Shown: piece by piece, positions 2-7,570 of the stretch
Layout of the letters: every line of letters starts with the position of its first letter
How positions within the stretch are numbered: the first letter of the stretch is position 1
Origin: Steroidobacteraceae bacterium
GTDB lineage: Bacteria > Pseudomonadota > Gammaproteobacteria > Steroidobacterales > Steroidobacteraceae
DNA length: 34,027 bases
Direction: 5' to 3'
NCBI GenBank assembly: GCA_016844605.1
Contig: JAENJD010000005.1
Span: 1 to 34,027, forward strand
The notes under the pieces: generated by a model
Told to the model about the DNA's origin: nothing
Databases searched by the model: none
The model's input: the letters and a program-made list of their open reading frames with translations, nothing else
Position numbers and translations under genes: made by a program

Positions 2-2311
2 TTCGATGGCAACAAGCTCGTCTTCGCGATGCGCATGCCGCTGATCCCAGGCGCGATGGATAGCGAACAGCCCAAGTGGACCATCTATGAGTACGACCGC
101 CCGACCGACACGCTGCGCCGCGTGATCGCCTCCGACCTCGTCGCCGAGGAAGGTCATGACGTTGCGCCCAACTACCTGCCGGACGGCCGCATCGTGTTTT
201 CGTCCACGCGCCAGCGCCAGTCAAAGGCCGTGCTGATCGACGAAGGCAAGCCGCAGTTTGCTGCCCAGGACGAAGACCGCAACGAACACGCCTTCGTGCT
301 GCATGTGATGAACCCGGACGGCACCATCATCCAACAGATCATTCGCCAGATCTCCTTCAACCAGAGTCACGACATGGACCCCGCGGTGCTCGCGGACGGA
401 CGCATCGTGTTCAGCCGCTGGGAGAACGCCAGTGGCAGCTCCATTCATCTATATACGGTCAATCCCGACGGCAGCGGTCTTGAGCTCCTGTACGGCGCGA
501 ACAGCCATGCAACGGGAACCGGAACGACGGACGTCCAATTCCTGCAGCCGCGACCGCGGCCCGATGGCAGCATCGTCGCGCTGTTGCGTTCATTCGACGA
601 CACCGAACTCGGCGGCGATCCGGTGTCGATCGACGCCACGAGCTTCGTCGAGATCCAGCAACCGACACTGTCCAACGCAGGCCTCGCCGGTCCGGCGCAG
701 AGGCGGCTTTCCCCCAATGACGTGCGCACCGACCCAGGCCCGTCGCCGGGCGGGCGCTATGCGTCGATATTCCCGATGTGGGACGGCACGAACCGGCTGC
801 TCGTCAGCTGGACCATTTGCCGGCTGCTCGAGGGCGGGCTTACCGTGCCCTGCACCGCCAGCCGCCTTGCAAATCCGGCGGCCGTGACGGCGCCGCCACT
901 TTATGGCGTCTGGATCTTCGATCCGCGCGATCTCACGCAGCGGCCGGTGCTGCAGCCAACCGAGGGCGTGCGCTATTCGGACGTCGTGCTGATGGCGCCG
1001 CGTGTGCCGCTGCCCGCCGTGATCCTCGATGCCGTGGCCGGCGTCGATTACGACCCGTTGCTCGCCGCGGAAAATGTCGGCATCCTGAATATCAAGAGCG
1101 TCTACGACCTGGATGGCGTGGATGCCGCGCCCGGCGGCATCACGGCGCTGCGTGACCCGGCGCAGGCGACCGCGGATCAGCGTCCGGCCCGCTTCCTGCG
1201 CGTGGAGAAGGCGGTCGGCCTGCCCGATGACGAGGTGCGCGATTTCCGCGCCACAGCCTTCGGAGCCGCGGGCGGTCTCGGCATGCGCCAAATCCTGGCC
1301 TATGCGCCGATCGAGCCCGACGGCTCGGTGCAGATCAAGCTGCCTGCCGGCGTGCCATTTGCGGTCGGCGTCGTCGATCGCGATGGGCGGCGTATCACGC
1401 CGCGACACCTCAACTGGATGCAGTTGCGGGCCGGCGAGCTCCTGAACTGCAATGGCTGCCACGTGCCTGCTGGCGCGCAAACTCCACCCGCAGTTTCCCA
1501 CGGACGCCGCCAGCTGTTTGTCTCCGTGAATCCGGGCGCGCCGACCACGGGCCAGCCATTCCCGAATACGAACGCGGCCTTGTTTGCCAACATGGGCGAG
1601 ACCATGGCGGAAGTGCGCGCGCGCATCAGTTGCCAGACCAATTGCGCCTCGCAGCTGCCTTCCGTGGACGTCATCTATGACGACGTCTGGACCGACCCGG
1701 TTGCAGCCGGCCGGCCCGCCGACACTTCATTCAGCTATCGCTACAACCAGCTGACGACTGCGGCGCCGACGAGCGGCAGCTGCCAGTCGAACTGGACCAT
1801 GCTGTGCCGTATCACAATCCACTACCCCAACCATCTGCAACCGCTGTGGACATTGCCGCGACTGACCCTGGACGCAGGTGGCGCGGTGATTGCCGACCGC
1901 ACCTGCGTCTCCTGCCACAGCCCGGCTGATGCCGCCGGCGCCGTGCGGGTGCCGGCCGGGCAACTCGACCTTTCGGGTGGTCCATCACCCGACGAGGCCG
2001 ACCATTTCGTGTCCTACCGCGAACTGCTGTTCACGGACAACGCGCAGGAAGTTAACATGGGCGCGCTGCAGGACATCCTGGTGCCGGGTCCGCCGGATCC
2101 GATCACCGGGCTGCCGACGCTCGTGCCCGTGCCCGTGAGCCCCTCGATGAGCGCTGCGGGCGCCAGGGCTTCGGCGACGTTCTTCAGCCGTTTCGATGCG
2201 GGCGGATCGCATGCAGGCGACCTGACCGCGGCGGAACTCAGGCTGATCGCCGAATGGCTGGACATCGGTGGGCAGTATTACAACGACCCGTTCATGGCGC
2301 CGACGAATTGA
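2..2311 (+). CDS. HzsA-like beta-propeller protein with two c-type haem sites (5' partial)
   Basis: The reading frame is open from base 2, so the gene starts upstream and the first internal ATG at 29 is not the true start. The N-terminal half repeats the PD40/TolB-type propeller pattern (DGRIVFSS, DGRIVFSR, NPDGSG). The C-terminal half has two CxxCH haem-attachment motifs, CNGCH (codon near 1448) and CVSCH (codon near 1904). This layout matches proteins annotated as related to the hydrazine synthase alpha subunit, but here it is only a structural resemblance and anammox chemistry is not implied. Haem attachment would place the protein in the periplasm or outside the cell. Extra cysteine pairs (SCQTNC, GSCQSNWTMLC) could form disulfides, which fits a thioredoxin encoded downstream. 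The next gene begins 4 bases after the stop, so an operon is likely. The family call is good; the substrate is unknown. Confidence 0.75.
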   Translation, partial: FDGNKLVFAMRMPLIPGAMDSEQPKWTIYEYDRPTDTLRRVIASDLVAEEGHDVAPNYLPDGRIVFSSTRQRQSKAVLIDEGKPQFAAQDEDRNEHAFVLHVMNPDGTIIQQIIRQISFNQSHDMDPAVLADGRIVFSRWENASGSSIHLYTVNPDGSGLELLYGANSHATGTGTTDVQFLQPRPRPDGSIVALLRSFDDTELGGDPVSIDATSFVEIQQPTLSNAGLAGPAQRRLSPNDVRTDPGPSPGGRYASIFPMWDGTNRLLVSWTICRLLEGGLTVPCTASRLANPAAVTAPPLYGVWIFDPRDLTQRPVLQPTEGVRYSDVVLMAPRVPLPAVILDAVAGVDYDPLLAAENVGILNIKSVYDLDGVDAAPGGITALRDPAQATADQRPARFLRVEKAVGLPDDEVRDFRATAFGAAGGLGMRQILAYAPIEPDGSVQIKLPAGVPFAVGVVDRDGRRITPRHLNWMQLRAGELLNCNGCHVPAGAQTPPAVSHGRRQLFVSVNPGAPTTGQPFPNTNAALFANMGETMAEVRARISCQTNCASQLPSVDVIYDDVWTDPVAAGRPADTSFSYRYNQLTTAAPTSGSCQSNWTMLCRITIHYPNHLQPLWTLPRLTLDAGGAVIADRTCVSCHSPADAAGAVRVPAGQLDLSGGPSPDEADHFVSYRELLFTDNAQEVNMGALQDILVPGPPDPITGLPTLVPVPVSPSMSAAGARASATFFSRFDAGGSHAGDLTAAELRLIAEWLDIGGQYYNDPFMAPTN

Positions 2312-2315
2312 AGCG

Positions 2316-3050
2316 ATGAGACTCTTCATTGCCTGCGCGCTGCTCATGTGCGCCGGCGCCGCCATTGCCGCTGACCGCGATGCACTCACGGTCATCGTCG
2401 TCGATCCCTATCTGGAACTCCACACCGGTCCCGGGCGTGGATTCCCCATTGTTCAGGTCGTACCACGGGGCGAGACGGTCCAGGTGCTCAAGCGGCGCAC
2501 CGACTGGTTTCAGATCCGCGATGCCGCCGGCCACGAAGGCTGGGTCCATCGCAGCCAGATCGCAGAAACGCTGGTGCCCGCAGGCGCGAAACTGGAAATT
2601 GACGACCCCGCACGCGAGGACTTTACGGCCCATCGCCGCGAGGTCGGCCTGATGCTGGGCGACTTCGGCGGCGCCAATGTAGTCACCGTGTATGGCGCCT
2701 ACGCATTCAATGCGCACCTTTCCGGCGAACTTGCGCTGTCGCACCTGCTCGGCAGTTTCTCCGACGGCCAGATCGTCGCAATCGGCGCGACACACGTGTT
2801 CGTTCCGGAATGGCGCATCCAGCCCTTCGCGTCGATGGGCACGGGGCTGATCCACGTCGAGCCAAAGTCCACGGTGGCGCAGTCGCCCCCACGGACCGAC
2901 CAGCTGGCCTATGTTGGCGTGGGCGTGCGCTCCTATCTGGCGCGACGGTTCATACTGCGGGCCGAATACAAGAACTATGTGGTCTTCACGGACCGTGACG
3001 AGAATGAGGAAGCCTACGAATGGAAAATTGGATTCGCGTTCTTCTTCTGA
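2316..3050 (+). CDS. Secreted SH3b-domain outer-membrane beta-barrel protein
   Basis: 244 residues starting at ATG 2316, four bases after the preceding stop. This start is preferred over an upstream in-frame ATG inside that gene because it gives a clean signal peptide (MRLFIACALLMCAGAAIAA). Residues about 25-90 look like a bacterial SH3 domain (LHTGPGRGFPIVQVVPRGE, then WFQIRD and EGWVHRSQI), a fold that often binds peptidoglycan or peptides. The rest alternates polar and hydrophobic residues and ends in four phenylalanines, typical of a small outer-membrane barrel. Its barrel shares a local pattern (VxVVYGA, then a run ending in EL/EG) with the next protein, suggesting a diverged pair. The role is unknown; the position suggests an envelope partner of the haem protein. 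Confidence 0.7.
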   Translation: MRLFIACALLMCAGAAIAADRDALTVIVVDPYLELHTGPGRGFPIVQVVPRGETVQVLKRRTDWFQIRDAAGHEGWVHRSQIAETLVPAGAKLEIDDPAREDFTAHRREVGLMLGDFGGANVVTVYGAYAFNAHLSGELALSHLLGSFSDGQIVAIGATHVFVPEWRIQPFASMGTGLIHVEPKSTVAQSPPRTDQLAYVGVGVRSYLARRFILRAEYKNYVVFTDRDENEEAYEWKIGFAFFF

Positions 3051-3762: not shown

Positions 3763-4272
3763 ATGCCGATGAACAGGAAATTGCATGTTGCTGCGCTGCT
3801 GGCGGGGCTGCTCGCGCTGTCCTGGTCCGCGCTCGCGACCGACGGCGCGCCCCCCGCGCCGGAATTCAGGCTCGTCAGCCGCGCCGGCGGCGAAATGTCG
3901 CTTTCCGGCCTGCGCGGCCAGGTTGTCATGATCAATTTCTGGGCCAGCTGGTGCGGACCCTGCCGGCAGGAGTTCCCTGCGCTTGACGAGATGTACCGGA
4001 AGTACAAGCCGATGGGATTCGCAATGGTTGGCATCAATGTCGAAAGCGACAAGGCGGACGCCGAGCGCTTCCTCAGCGCGCGCCCCGTCAGCTTCCCGAT
4101 CCTGTTCGACCCCGACAACCATGTGAGCGGCAGCTATGGCGTGAGCGCCATGCCGACGACCGTGCTGGTTGACCGCAAGGGCCACATACGCTGGCAGCAC
4201 CGGGCCTACAAGCCGGGCGACGAGGCCGAGTACATCGCCCAGATCCGCGCGATGCTCCGCGAGCCTTCGTGA
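3763..4272 (+). CDS. TlpA-like periplasmic thioredoxin-fold protein
   Basis: 169 residues. A signal peptide (MNRKLHVAALLAGLLALSWSALA) precedes an AhpC/TSA-Redoxin type thioredoxin domain. The active site is WCGPC at about residues 64-68, in the context INFWASWCGPCRQEF. The cis-proline loop is seen as SAMPTTVLVDRKG near residue 130. TlpA/ResA proteins reduce disulfides outside the cytoplasm, often to prepare apocytochromes or metal sites. Here likely partners are the haem protein and the cysteine-tailed DUF4266 lipoprotein. The start may be ATG 3763 or ATG 3769. The stop overlaps the next start as GTGA, indicating coupled translation. Confidence 0.85.
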   Translation: MPMNRKLHVAALLAGLLALSWSALATDGAPPAPEFRLVSRAGGEMSLSGLRGQVVMINFWASWCGPCRQEFPALDEMYRKYKPMGFAMVGINVESDKADAERFLSARPVSFPILFDPDNHVSGSYGVSAMPTTVLVDRKGHIRWQHRAYKPGDEAEYIAQIRAMLREPS

Positions 4273-4496
4273 TCTCATCCCGCGCATTGTTCGCTGCGCT
4301 CGCGCTGCTGGCTTTCTCGGGTTGCTCGCATGTCGAGCCCTGGGTCAAGCCTTACGAGCGTGAGAATCTCGCCGATCCGATCATGGCCTGGGACCGCGAC
4401 CCCGTCGCTTCGTCCTACATGCGCCATGTCTACGAGTCCCGCGAGGGTGCCCGCGGCGCCGCGGGCGCAACCGGCGGCGGCTGCGGATGCAACTGA
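4269..4496 (+). CDS. DUF4266 lipoprotein with Cys-Gly-Cys C-terminus
   Basis: 75 residues, GTG start overlapping the preceding stop (GTGA). A lipobox (LLAFSGC) puts the acylated cysteine at about position 19, followed by the DUF4266-like core HVEPWVKPYERENLADPIM and YMRHVYESREGARG. The protein ends GGGCGCN, so two cysteines sit at the extreme C-terminus on a glycine-rich tail. From memory this tail is conserved in the family, but I could not check. No biochemical function is known. It is encoded between a thioredoxin and a DUF3570 protein, with ApbE nearby; the tail could bind metal or be a redox substrate of the thioredoxin (inference). Confidence 0.8.
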   Translation: MISSRALFAALALLAFSGCSHVEPWVKPYERENLADPIMAWDRDPVASSYMRHVYESREGARGAAGATGGGCGCN

Positions 4497-5638
4497 ACCG
4501 GATAGCCCGCGGAATCGCAGCCGCGCTGGCTGCGGGCTGGCTGCTCTGCCCGGCTCTGTCGATCGCCGGCGTCCTTCCCGAAGACCGCGCCGACCTGATG
4601 TACCACTACTACGACGGTGGCGGCGTCCGGATCGACGGCCCCTCGCTGCTGGTGCGCAAGAAATTTGCCGAGAAATATGCGGTCAATGCGAGCTATTACG
4701 TCGACATGGTGTCCTCGGCCTCCATCGACGTCATCACGACAGCCAGCCCCTACCAGGAGGAAAGAACCCAATATGGCCTTGGTTTCGAGTACCTGCGCGG
4801 CAAGGTCACCTACGCCGCCAGTTTCAGCAACAGCAAGGAAAATGATTACGACGCCGATACGGCCAGCTTCTCGATCAGCCAGGACATGTTCGGCGACCTG
4901 ACGACGGTCCAGCTTTCATTCAGCCGCGGCAAGGATGACGTGACGCGCCGCGGCGACCCGCTGTTCGGCGACAAGGTCGACCGCCATATCTACGGCATTG
5001 ATGTCTCCCAGATCGTCAGCAAGAAATTGATTCTCGGCGCGTCCTGGGAAACCACGACCGAAGAGGGATTCCTGAACAATCCCTACCGGCGCGTGCGCTA
5101 CGTGGACGCCGTGCCGCTTGGCTATTCATACGAGTTCGAACGCTATCCGCGCACGCGAACCGGCAATGCTCTTGCACTGCGCGCTCGCTATTACCTGCAC
5201 TACCGCGCCGCGCTGCAGGGCGACTATCGCTGGTACAACGATACCTGGGGCATCGACGCGAACACATTCGAGATCGCCTACACGCAGCCGATTGGCGACC
5301 GGCTGATGTTCGATGTCCACTTCCGCTATTACATGCAGGGCGCGGCCGATTTCTACTCGGACCTGTTCCCGCGAGCGAACTTCCAGAATTTCCTCGCGCG
5401 CGACAAGGAACTCGCGACGATGGATAGCCAGACGCTGGGTTTCGGCGTCGGCTACGAGTTCAACGTCCCCAGGGTCGAGTTCATCCAGAAGGCCACGGTG
5501 AACCTGAAGTACGACTTCATCCGGTTCAATTACGATGATTTCCGCGACCTGCGGCCGATCGGCCTCACGCCCGGCACCGAGCCCCTGTACAGCTTCGACG
5601 CCAACGTCATCCGGCTCTTTTTCTCCGGCTGGTTCTAG
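4487..5638 (+). CDS. DUF3570 outer-membrane protein
   Basis: 383 residues, starting at an ATG that overlaps the end of the DUF4266 gene by 10 bases. A signal peptide precedes VLPEDRADLMYHYYDGGG, typical of DUF3570 proteins. Most of the chain is amphipathic beta-strand (YGLGFEYLRGKVTYAASF, FDVHFRYYMQ) ending in FFSGWF, so an outer-membrane barrel is likely. Residues 73-79 (DMVSSAS) and 81-87 (DVITTAS) are tandem copies of D-x-[VI]-[ST]-[ST]-A-S, close to the D-x-x-[ST]-G-A-[ST] sequence that ApbE modifies with FMN on Ser/Thr. The convergent neighbour is ApbE, and the two stop codons share the palindrome CTAG (5635-5638). Flavinylation of this protein is a hypothesis. Confidence 0.8.
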   Translation: MQLNRIARGIAAALAAGWLLCPALSIAGVLPEDRADLMYHYYDGGGVRIDGPSLLVRKKFAEKYAVNASYYVDMVSSASIDVITTASPYQEERTQYGLGFEYLRGKVTYAASFSNSKENDYDADTASFSISQDMFGDLTTVQLSFSRGKDDVTRRGDPLFGDKVDRHIYGIDVSQIVSKKLILGASWETTTEEGFLNNPYRRVRYVDAVPLGYSYEFERYPRTRTGNALALRARYYLHYRAALQGDYRWYNDTWGIDANTFEIAYTQPIGDRLMFDVHFRYYMQGAADFYSDLFPRANFQNFLARDKELATMDSQTLGFGVGYEFNVPRVEFIQKATVNLKYDFIRFNYDDFRDLRPIGLTPGTEPLYSFDANVIRLFFSGWF

Positions 5639-6624
5639 GGTGCCCTCCCCCCGTCGGGGGGCGCCAGTCCTTTCGAATAGAACACGCGGCCGTCGCTTCG
5701 CACGACAACCGCATCGACGTCGTCCTGGGATTCGATCAGCGCGAGGCCCCGCTCAGGCCCCATCACGAACACGCTCTTGGTCAGGCCTTCGGTCAGGGTC
5801 GCATTGGGGCCGATCACGGTGACACTGCGCACGCCCACCGGGCTCCTGCCGGTGTGTGGATCGATGATGTGGTGGTAGCGGACACCGTTCTCGTCGAAGT
5901 AGCGCTCGTAGTCGCCCGACGTCGACATCGCCGTGTCCTCCAGCGGGATTCTTGCGATCACACGATTGGGGTCGTCCGGATGCCGGATACCCACGATCCA
6001 TGGCTTGCCGCGCCGGTCGCCCAGGATGCGGCTGTCGCCCCCGGCGCTGACGGTCGCATTCCGGATGCCGCGCGCCTGCAGGATCCGGGCGGCCGAATCC
6101 ACCGCGTAACCCTTGGCGATGCCACCGAGGTCGATCCGCACGCCAGGCATCAGGAATCGAACCGTCGAAGCTTCGCGGTCCACCACGACATGACGCCAGC
6201 TGATCGCCGGCAGGGCCGCCTGGATCTGGGCCTCGCTGGGATGACGGTGCTCTCGGTAGTCGTAAAGGTTGCCGACACTCGCGTAGGTGATGTCGAAGGC
6301 GCCGTCGGATAGTTCCGAAAACTCCAGCGCCCTCGCGATCAGCGCCGCAAGTTCTGCGTCCACCTTCACGGGCGCGGTTGCGGCGTCACGGTTGATCTGC
6401 GAAAGCTGGCTCTCGGGCTTGTAATGCGACATCAGGTCGTCAATGCGGTGCATTTCGGCCATTACCGCATCGATCGCGGCCTCGGCCTGGCCTGCATCCT
6501 CGTGCCAAAGCTCGACCGAGATGCGCGTCCCCATGATCGCGGCCTCGCGCTCATGCCATTCGGCCCGCGCCGTGACCGGAATCAGCAGCAACAATGTGGT
6601 GAAGGCGCTTGCGATTCGGCGCAT
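5635..6624 (-). CDS. apbE: FAD:protein FMN transferase
   Basis: 329 residues. ApbE transfers FMN from FAD to a Ser/Thr of extracytoplasmic target proteins, using Mg2+. A signal peptide (MRRIASAFTTLLLLIPVTARA) is followed by family motifs: IMGTRISVELW, DDLMSHYKPESQLSQIN, GAFDITYASVGNLYDY, RIDLGGIAKGYAVD, NATVSAGGDSRILG, and the late ISDPHTG-like motif IIDPHTGRSPVGVRSVTVIG. Of two adjacent ATGs (6627 and 6624), 6624 is better spaced from GGGAAG; the longer frame reaching 6855 has no signal peptide and crosses the intergenic region. No FMN-binding-domain protein lies in the window, so DUF3570 is the best local candidate acceptor. The gene converges on DUF3570 with shared stop bases. Confidence 0.92.
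   Translation of the reverse strand: MRRIASAFTTLLLLIPVTARAEWHEREAAIMGTRISVELWHEDAGQAEAAIDAVMAEMHRIDDLMSHYKPESQLSQINRDAATAPVKVDAELAALIARALEFSELSDGAFDITYASVGNLYDYREHRHPSEAQIQAALPAISWRHVVVDREASTVRFLMPGVRIDLGGIAKGYAVDSAARILQARGIRNATVSAGGDSRILGDRRGKPWIVGIRHPDDPNRVIARIPLEDTAMSTSGDYERYFDENGVRYHHIIDPHTGRSPVGVRSVTVIGPNATLTEGLTKSVFVMGPERGLALIESQDDVDAVVVRSDGRVFYSKGLAPPDGGRAP
5639..5665. terminator. GC hairpin between convergent DUF3570 and apbE genes
   Basis: A six-base C run (5647-5652) and a six-base G run (5656-5661) are separated by three bases, with an outer GGTG/CGCC extension. It lies just after the DUF3570 stop and inside the last codons of apbE. No T-run follows on either strand, so termination activity is uncertain. 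Confidence 0.35.
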
Positions 6625-6781: not shown

Positions 6782-7570
6782 ATGAAATTTTCCGGAATCA
6801 TCCTTGGCGCTGTTCTCGCCGGCGCACTGACCGGCGCACCTGCTTTGGCGGTCACGCGCGAGGAAGCAACGATCGATAACTCGATGGTCGTGCTGCGCGA
6901 GCTTCAAAGTATGCCGGATCTTCAGATCCCGGATCAGCTGCTGGCCCGCGCCGAAGGCATCGTGATCCTGCCCGCAAACGTCAAGGTTGCGCTGATCGGC
7001 GGCGCGCGCTTCGGCGGTGGCGTGATGCTGGTTCGGACCCAGAATCGTGACTGGAGCAATCCGGTCTTCGTGAAGTCCGGCGGTGGCAGCGTCGGCTTTC
7101 AGTGGGGCGGCCAGGTCGCCGACATCGTGCTCGTGTTGACGACCAAGCGAAGCATCGAAGGCATCACGGACGGCAAGCTGACGCTCGGCGCCGACGCCTC
7201 GGTCGCCGCCGGCCCGGTCGGCCGCACAGCCATGGCCTCGACCAGCCTGACCTTCGATTCCGAAATTTACGCCTACTCCCGGACCAAGGGACTGTTCGCA
7301 GGCGTCTCGCTGGAAGGCAGTGGCATCTTCATCAACAACAAGGCCAACCGCCGTTTCTATGACGGCGAGGCCAGTGCGACCGCGATACTGTCGGCCAACA
7401 GCACGCCCCCGGCACCTGCCGATGAGCTCGTTGCCGAAATCCGCCGCATCACCTCGGTCGCGCAGCAGCCTGCCGCTGAAAACGCAAAGCCTGCGACCGA
7501 AGTGGCGCCGGTGGAAGCGCGTACCTATCCATTGCCCGATCCTCAGCCCGGCGCCGAGCCGCCGAACTGA
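6782..7570 (+). CDS. Secreted SYLF-domain lipid-binding protein
   Basis: 262 residues. A signal peptide (MKFSGIILGAVLAGALTGAPALA) is followed by a SYLF/YSC84 (DUF500) domain. Signatures are AEGIVILPANVKVALIGGARFGGGVMLVR, VGFQWGGQVADIVLVL, GADASVAAGPVGR, EIYAYSRTKGLFAGVSLEGSGIF and the NNKANRRFYDG element. Eukaryotic SYLF domains bind phosphoinositides; bacterial homologues are poorly understood envelope proteins. A proline/alanine-rich tail of about 45 residues ends the protein. The start has a good ribosome-binding site (GGAAG, seven bases upstream). The gene is divergent from apbE across about 155 bases with no clear promoter that I can defend. Confidence 0.85.
   Translation: MKFSGIILGAVLAGALTGAPALAVTREEATIDNSMVVLRELQSMPDLQIPDQLLARAEGIVILPANVKVALIGGARFGGGVMLVRTQNRDWSNPVFVKSGGGSVGFQWGGQVADIVLVLTTKRSIEGITDGKLTLGADASVAAGPVGRTAMASTSLTFDSEIYAYSRTKGLFAGVSLEGSGIFINNKANRRFYDGEASATAILSANSTPPAPADELVAEIRRITSVAQQPAAENAKPATEVAPVEARTYPLPDPQPGAEPPN

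Follow-up and report, generated by a model that had tools for sequence, protein, structure and literature searches.

Clusters that combine ApbE, a flavin adenine dinucleotide (FAD):protein flavin mononucleotide (FMN) transferase, with DUF3570, DUF4266 and thioredoxin-like proteins have already been described (Meheust et al. 2021, PMC8238504). The text of that study reports that DUF3570 of Chlorobium luteolum was experimentally flavinylated by ApbE at two [S/T]GA[S/T] motifs, that DUF4266 has a CxC tail, and that 316 such clusters lack DsbD and 25 carry the VIT1 iron transporter; in its main text the terms 'hydrazine', 'beta-barrel' and 'Gammaproteobacteria' do not occur. The text of a 2024 follow-up speaks generally of flavinylation sites in outer-membrane proteins, without using the term DUF3570 (PMC11334425), so flavinylated outer-membrane proteins are not a new notion. 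Here we analyse a window of 34,027 nucleotides (the whole of positions 1 to 34,027 of contig JAENJD010000005.1, assembly GCA_016844605.1) from a Steroidobacteraceae bacterium of the order Steroidobacterales, in which genes for TlpA, DUF4266, DUF3570 and ApbE lie together beside genes for haem proteins.

On balance we favour the view that these genes specify a thiol/flavin/haem redox complex at the outer membrane, with DUF3570 loaded with FMN by ApbE. The four-gene module is a variant of the known flavin-attachment system, and its haem-protein setting is apparently undescribed. An earlier reading made from the sequence alone (the sequence-only reading) had considered the whole arrangement novel; this stands for the haem-linked cluster, of which no description was found in the open literature searched (most subscription papers and the supplement of PMC8238504 lay outside the search), and does not stand for the module, which the text of PMC8238504 already contains.

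Results

The DUF3570 gene is the last member of a divergent nine-gene cluster that runs X530, LamG dihaem lipoprotein and CytA on one arm and HzsA-like protein (resembling hydrazine synthase alpha), SH3 barrel, TIGR04565 barrel, TlpA, DUF4266 and DUF3570 on the other. Conservation was counted in 80 named loci, the best named relatives of at least 552, each gene being scored only where a locus had enough flank; these are the closest relatives and conservation may drop further out. X530 was found in 52/52 loci, LamG in 54/54, CytA in 54/54, HzsA-like in 60/60, SH3 in 65/65, TIGR04565 in 71/71 and DUF4266 in 77/78. The named loci include Candidatus Thiodiazotropha symbionts, Alcanivorax, Steroidobacter and Povalibacter, and the cluster is present in cultured strains. 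A second set of 40 loci, some on short contigs, held HzsA-like in 36, each barrel in 38, DUF4266 in 39, TlpA in 32 and ApbE in 10.

A profile search of 147 genomes of the order found DUF3570 in 84, as two types: long (approximately 335–450 bits) and short (approximately 47–160 bits). Many genomes have both types and three are long-only. The haem genes follow the short type. HZS_alpha occurs in 76 of 81 short-type genomes, in 2 of the 66 others and in none of the three long-only genomes; the two exceptions have cut contigs bearing further cluster genes. The short-type genomes without HZS_alpha are G101, G010, G142, G002 and G113, the last of which has a contig that ends in an HzsA fragment. Divergent CytA and LamG genes were added in all 16 short-type loci that were extended, and HzsA-like, CytA and LamG matches were absent from the four long-type loci of the order that were examined.

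Judged by its sequence, the window DUF3570 (143.9 bits against a PF12094 cut-off of 25) belongs to a short, divergent subtype in which the two acceptor serines are retained. The text of a 2025 review gives the flavinylation motif as D-x-x-[S/T]-G-A-[S/T] (PMC12052999). Both window motifs retain the acceptor Ser, the Ala and the Asp, with Gly replaced by Ser at site 1 and by Thr at site 2. An alignment of 73 short-type sequences shows no variation at D73, A78, D81 and S87 and very little at S79. Every one of the 80 named loci has Ser/Thr at site 1 together with a site-2 Ser; a loose pattern showed this for 79, and inspection by eye for L163. The glycine place of site 1 is occupied by Ser in 75, Ala in two and Gly in two of the 79 motifs read by pattern, one of which has a Thr acceptor; site 2 is looser (TTAS, STAS, TQAS, ATAS, TQGS and others). 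As a control, 19 long-type loci were read; a frame was obtained for 10, two of them wrong, and D-x-x-T-G-A-[T/S] aligned with site 1 in the eight correctly framed ones. On plasmids, DUF3570 was seen only in two distant Hymenobacter records.

The grouping with the partner genes is not a chance one. DUF4266 occurs in 81 of the 84 genomes with DUF3570 and in none of the 63 without; the corresponding figures for ApbE are 83/84 and 28/63. Among genomes free of FMN_bind, ApbE is present in 5/6 with DUF3570 and 2/36 without (Fisher p 1.4e-4), the sixth DUF3570 genome being G142, whose motifs are lost. ApbE accompanies all 76 genomes of the order with both short DUF3570 and HZS_alpha. At the level of the family, it is found in 111 of 113 genomes with an intact-scoring short DUF3570 (intact by score, not each inspected, and including the decaying G237 discussed below) and in 2/7 with a degenerate one. 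Intact-scoring G160 lacks a full ApbE; it has both motifs, a GGGCGCN tail and an ApbE fragment at a contig end. The sequence-only reading had proposed co-occurrence of DUF3570, DUF4266 and ApbE across genomes as a check, with restriction to this lineage speaking against it, and the association holds far beyond the lineage.

The window's own genome (87% complete) has one DUF3570, one ApbE and one DUF4266. A profile search found no FMN_bind at E<=0.1, as the sequence-only reading had also noted for the stretch, and no DUF2271 over its cut-off; NqrB/RnfD, Flavodoxin_4 and FMN_red were not searched. G091 likewise has one ApbE, one DUF3570, no FMN_bind and a DUF2271 match only below threshold (E 0.04). 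DUF2271 exceeded its cut-off in none of eight genomes examined, with sub-threshold matches in three. In the window's genus, G085 lacks DUF3570, DUF4266 and HZS_alpha and has a weak ApbE match (2.6e-6), possibly a remnant.

Further evidence comes from loss. Seven family genomes carry a degenerate short DUF3570 (G010, G168, G183 and G196 of genus g2; G142, G200 and G256 of genus g10), and none of the seven has either flavinylation motif intact; in g10, Asp stands in place of the site-1 Ser. DUF4266 was not seen in six of them, and the G142 copy is without the GGGCGCN tail. ApbE has no match in five; a single ApbE with a lower score is present in G010 and in G168, and could be explained in the former by an FMN_bind match and in the latter by a long-type DUF3570. 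No HzsA-like, CytA, LamG or X530 gene lies in the fetched stretch of any of the seven loci, where HzsA-like should adjoin the SH3 gene, although only approximately 3–4 kb upstream was covered for G183 and G196; genome-wide HZS_alpha searches, made for G010 and G142 only, found none. Both barrel genes (SH3, TIGR04565) are retained in all seven. In trees of DUF3570 and of the TIGR04565 barrel the seven split into two distinct groups, one of which sits within the intact members of its own genus. Loci devoid of the haem genes (L180, L181, L216–L220) have an additional, divergent TlpA-like gene upstream of the barrel genes. From another family, G101 has only a truncated short DUF3570 (L185, 8866–9390) with no other cluster gene in 13 kb, and is perhaps a third loss.

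G237 is one decaying case. It keeps all nine genes, its motif is broken (SGVS, the second lost), its tail reads GLGCSSN, and no ApbE lies in the 15.5 kb fetched; in five intact relatives from its genus, the two motifs and the tail are kept and ApbE is convergent. Taken with the losses in the seven genomes, this indicates at the sequence level that the flavinylation motifs, CxC tail and ApbE behave as one unit, usually going with the haem genes. Since ApbE tracks DUF3570, and motifs, tail and ApbE are lost together, we judge it unlikely that the flavin sites are dead. We infer that the window DUF3570 very probably carries FMN. The idea that DUF3570 is the ApbE acceptor is thus well supported and, given the C. 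luteolum experiment in the text of PMC8238504, not new. A flavin-haem link had also been suggested; conserved neighbourhood, co-occurrence and correlated loss support it, and functional coupling of the flavin barrel with the haem genes is likely.

An AlphaFold model of DUF3570 built from 73 sequences (predicted local distance difference test, pLDDT, 86) has 16 strands, turns of 2–9 residues on one side, long loops on the opposite side and a C-terminal WF. Foldseek matches to the model are porin-like (E approximately 1e-8, template modelling score 0.4–0.6), and we hold with high confidence that DUF3570 is an outer-membrane barrel. In the model, the loop joining strands 3 and 4 contains S79 and S87; it belongs to the side with the long loops, which would face outwards by the usual topology rule. 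This loop may fold into the barrel lumen. Mean conservation is 3.09 for long-side loops, 2.81 for strands and 2.42 for turns. Loops as conserved as strands are unusual for outer-membrane proteins. ApbE would have to modify DUF3570 before membrane insertion, which fits the modification of a signal-less, largely insoluble DUF3570 reported in the text of PMC8238504. The surface exposure proposed by the sequence-only reading rests on the topology of this predicted barrel.

The similarity of the HzsA-like protein to hydrazine synthase alpha (PDB 5c2v) is weak (whole-sequence E 1.5e-13) and covers the CxxCH domain of haem alpha-I and the C-terminal end. Hydrazine synthesis was rejected as its function: the N-terminally cut sequence scores 36.9 bits against the 800-bit HzsA equivalog cut-off. 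The residue four after the CxxCH His is Gly, the position of Tyr591 in the Kuenenia enzyme (text of PMC12758564), and no HzsB or HzsC (beta/gamma) was recognised among the nine recurring cluster families, for which no family-specific search was made. HZS_alpha-type proteins outside anammox are treated, in the texts of PMC10732223 and PMC12758564, as relatives without shown function. By a crude pattern, a lipobox-like start is found in 35/58 HzsA-like and 31/54 LamG proteins. Some relatives have C-x4-C-H instead of C-x2-C-H as second haem motif (L098, L110, L125), and 7/58 HzsA-like proteins have only one CxxCH.

CytA has one CxxCH and stands beside a conserved exported partner and the LamG protein. 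At E<=1 it matches PSD2 in 10/12 members (best E 1e-6) and PSCyt3 in 8/12 (best E 0.004), domains whose function is described as unknown in the text of PMC5615132; the scores seen against cut-offs lie below them, one member has no match, and comparison with solved structures gave nothing convincing. A LamG domain is recognised in L075 at 4e-18. X530 matches no Pfam family at E<=1 in 13 members and no solved structure, and its model (mean pLDDT 48.6) is too poor to use; for a likeness to DUF1501-type proteins, seen by eye, no Pfam or structure match was found and no claim is made. Among solved structures, TlpA has relatives of the TlpA/ResA/DsbE/CcmG kind.

In the window (Table 1), TlpA, DUF4266 and DUF3570 end a six-gene plus-strand run that starts with HzsA-like, the SH3 barrel and the TIGR04565 barrel, and adjacent frames overlap or nearly abut in the list of open reading frames (ORFs). 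The apbE gene is convergent to the DUF3570 gene, tail to tail, with overlapping stop codons. ORFs and Pfam/NCBIfam matches agree with the sequence-only reading both on the four-gene cluster at 3763–6624 and on its position downstream of a dihaem propeller gene and two barrel genes. No DsbD was found among nine Pfam-scanned window proteins, and no genome-wide search for it was made. The HzsA-like gene has lost its 5' end at the contig start, and the ATG at 29 lies inside the gene. In the same genome, contig C26 (4,833 bases) carries the HzsA N-terminus on the minus strand, with a lipobox-like signal and 29 residues identical to the start of the window ORF; next come CytA, the LamG lipoprotein and the first part of X530. 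The two contigs share end sequence, an assembly break splitting the HzsA-like gene; all nine cluster genes are therefore present in this genome over two contigs, X530 partially. After apbE lies a Ysc84/SYLF-domain gene (6782–7570), which is near DUF3570 in 14/16 family genomes examined, all seven degenerate ones included; its product may be another envelope partner.

Table 1 Features of the flavin-haem locus in the window
Feature	Position	Strand	Evidence
HzsA-like dihaem beta-propeller lipoprotein	2..2311	+	two CxxCH; PD40 8e-8; HZS_alpha PF18582 3e-10
SH3-domain protein, barrel-like C-terminal region	2316..3050	+	Pfam/NCBIfam profile search
Outer-membrane beta-barrel protein TIGR04565	3020..3751	+	NCBIfam 3.9e-45
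TlpA/ResA-like thiol-disulfide protein	3763..4272	+	AhpC-TSA 2e-28; WCGPC
DUF4266 small lipoprotein	4269..4496	+	PF14086 5e-25; C-terminal GGGCGCN
GGGCGCN tail of DUF4266 (CxC)	4473..4493	+	sequence; altered or lost where flavinylation motifs are broken
Short-subtype DUF3570, predicted 16-strand outer-membrane barrel, predicted ApbE substrate	4487..5638	+	PF12094 8e-42
Flavinylation-like site 1, D73-MVSSA-S79	4703..4723	+	motif comparison
Flavinylation-like site 2, D81-VITTA-S87	4727..4747	+	motif comparison
ApbE FAD:protein FMN transferase	5635..6624	-	PF02424 5e-88, positions 1-265 of 266; Sec-type signal by eye

Discussion

We propose that ApbE acts in the periplasm, attaching FMN to one or two serines in a loop of the DUF3570 barrel, and that this loop would come to end at the outer face. 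Electrons would pass between the flavin and two thiol partners, the CxC tail of the DUF4266 lipoprotein and, in loci that have it, TlpA. The flavin would in turn work with the cluster's lipid-anchored and periplasmic haem proteins, namely CytA, the HzsA-like dihaem propeller and the LamG dihaem lipoprotein. A single redox complex at the outer membrane would thereby unite thiol, flavin and haem groups. Sequence shows directly which genes are present, how well they are conserved and that their losses are correlated; the barrel fold and loop side are predicted by the model, and FMN on the window protein and electron flow between the parts are inferred. Electron transfer at the outer face, towards the cell surface or away from it, is marginally favoured. 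A full and widespread gammaproteobacterial conduit, passing from thiol (TlpA, CxC tail) to FMN on an outer-face loop of a 16-strand barrel and on to surface dihaem lipoproteins (HzsA-like, LamG) with no multihaem wire, is put forward tentatively and is the less probable version.

Several observations weigh against this proposal. Short-subtype motifs are mostly without the usual Gly, and in another protein Gly to Ala approximately halved flavinylation (PMC12052999, whose text does not mention Gly to Ser). The four g2 genomes keep Ser at position 79, with the surrounding motif and site 2 gone; the degenerate genomes come from only two lineages, with long branches and odd composition; and G237 retains its haem genes despite a broken flavin motif. 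The co-occurrence tests ignore shared ancestry. G318 has intact motifs and a GGGCGCN tail with no ApbE found, on a contig that ends soon after. ApbE is seldom adjacent (5/41 named loci with both flanks, 10/40 in the second set) as would suit a maturation factor better than a constant member of the cluster. TlpA is present in 59 of 72 named loci and missing from the other 13, which rules it out as a universal donor; an inner-membrane source of electrons was not identified. The side on which the S79/S87 loop lies is assigned by topology rules, and loop pLDDT is approximately 58–73.

The locus could instead be an ordinary DsbD/thioredoxin-type DUF3570 system in the sense of Meheust et al. (2021), serving for example iron reduction, with the haem genes as neighbours without shared function. 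The four families are the same, the text of PMC8238504 allows for DsbD-less clusters (316) and clusters with VIT1 (25), the four long-type loci examined manage without HzsA-like, CytA or LamG matches, and G237 combines haem genes with a broken motif. Against it stand the constant presence of six upstream families (52/52 to 71/71 loci), the tracking of the short subtype by HZS_alpha (76/81, against 0/3 long-only genomes) and the joint loss in two lineages, and we regard this explanation as unlikely. Similarly improbable, in our estimate, is a surface system of enzymes whose substrate is an extracellular polymer, with CytA, LamG and exported X530 doing the chemistry and the flavin barrel as electron carrier. 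The PSD2 and PSCyt3 matches of CytA and the LamG domain of L075 lean towards it, as do carbohydrate-binding domains in some Verrucomicrobia PSCyt genes, of function unknown according to the text of PMC5615132; yet the CytA scores seen fall under their cut-offs, one member being matchless, and X530 has neither a Pfam match nor a usable model.

Less probable still is a role for DUF4266 and TlpA in supplying metal or haem to the haem proteins, the CxC tail binding copper or iron and DUF3570 acting as a metal-reducing gate. Some of the TlpA/ResA/DsbE/CcmG relatives of TlpA serve cytochrome c maturation, and the CxC tail does adjoin haem genes. However, tail and flavinylation motifs change together even in G237, where the haem genes persist, which points to a tie between tail and flavin, and TlpA is absent from 13/72 loci. 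If the proposed thiol/flavin/haem complex is correct, many Gammaproteobacteria gain an outer-membrane flavin-haem redox system, and HZS_alpha proteins outside anammox, DUF4266 and the divergent flavinylation motif each acquire a setting. Because the cluster occurs in cultured strains, the prediction is directly testable.

The closest described relatives are the 'DsbD systems' of Meheust et al. (text of PMC8238504), which share with the window all four families and a C-terminal CxC in DUF4266, and in which DUF3570 is an experimentally flavinylated ApbE substrate. The window differs in its short, divergent DUF3570 with Ser/Thr for the motif Gly, in the surrounding nine-gene haem cluster, in the absence of DsbD among its scanned neighbours (which that text also allows) and in an ApbE that is mostly non-adjacent in relatives. 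With hydrazine synthase alpha (PDB 5c2v) the HzsA-like protein shares the haem alpha-I CxxCH domain and C-terminal end, in contrast to its score far under the equivalog cut-off, its Gly for Tyr591 and a cluster in which beta and gamma were not recognised among the families. CytA is weakly like PSD2/PSCyt3 of the Planctomycete PSCyt/PSD sets and lies next to an exported partner and a LamG protein; unlike those sets, it scores weakly, has one CxxCH, is linked to a flavin barrel and occurs in Gammaproteobacteria. MtrCAB-type porin-multihaem conduits combine a barrel with lipoprotein cytochromes at the outer membrane. The window cluster likewise combines a barrel with lipoprotein cytochromes, probably at the outer membrane, but it lacks a multihaem wire and has its predicted FMN sites on the barrel itself.

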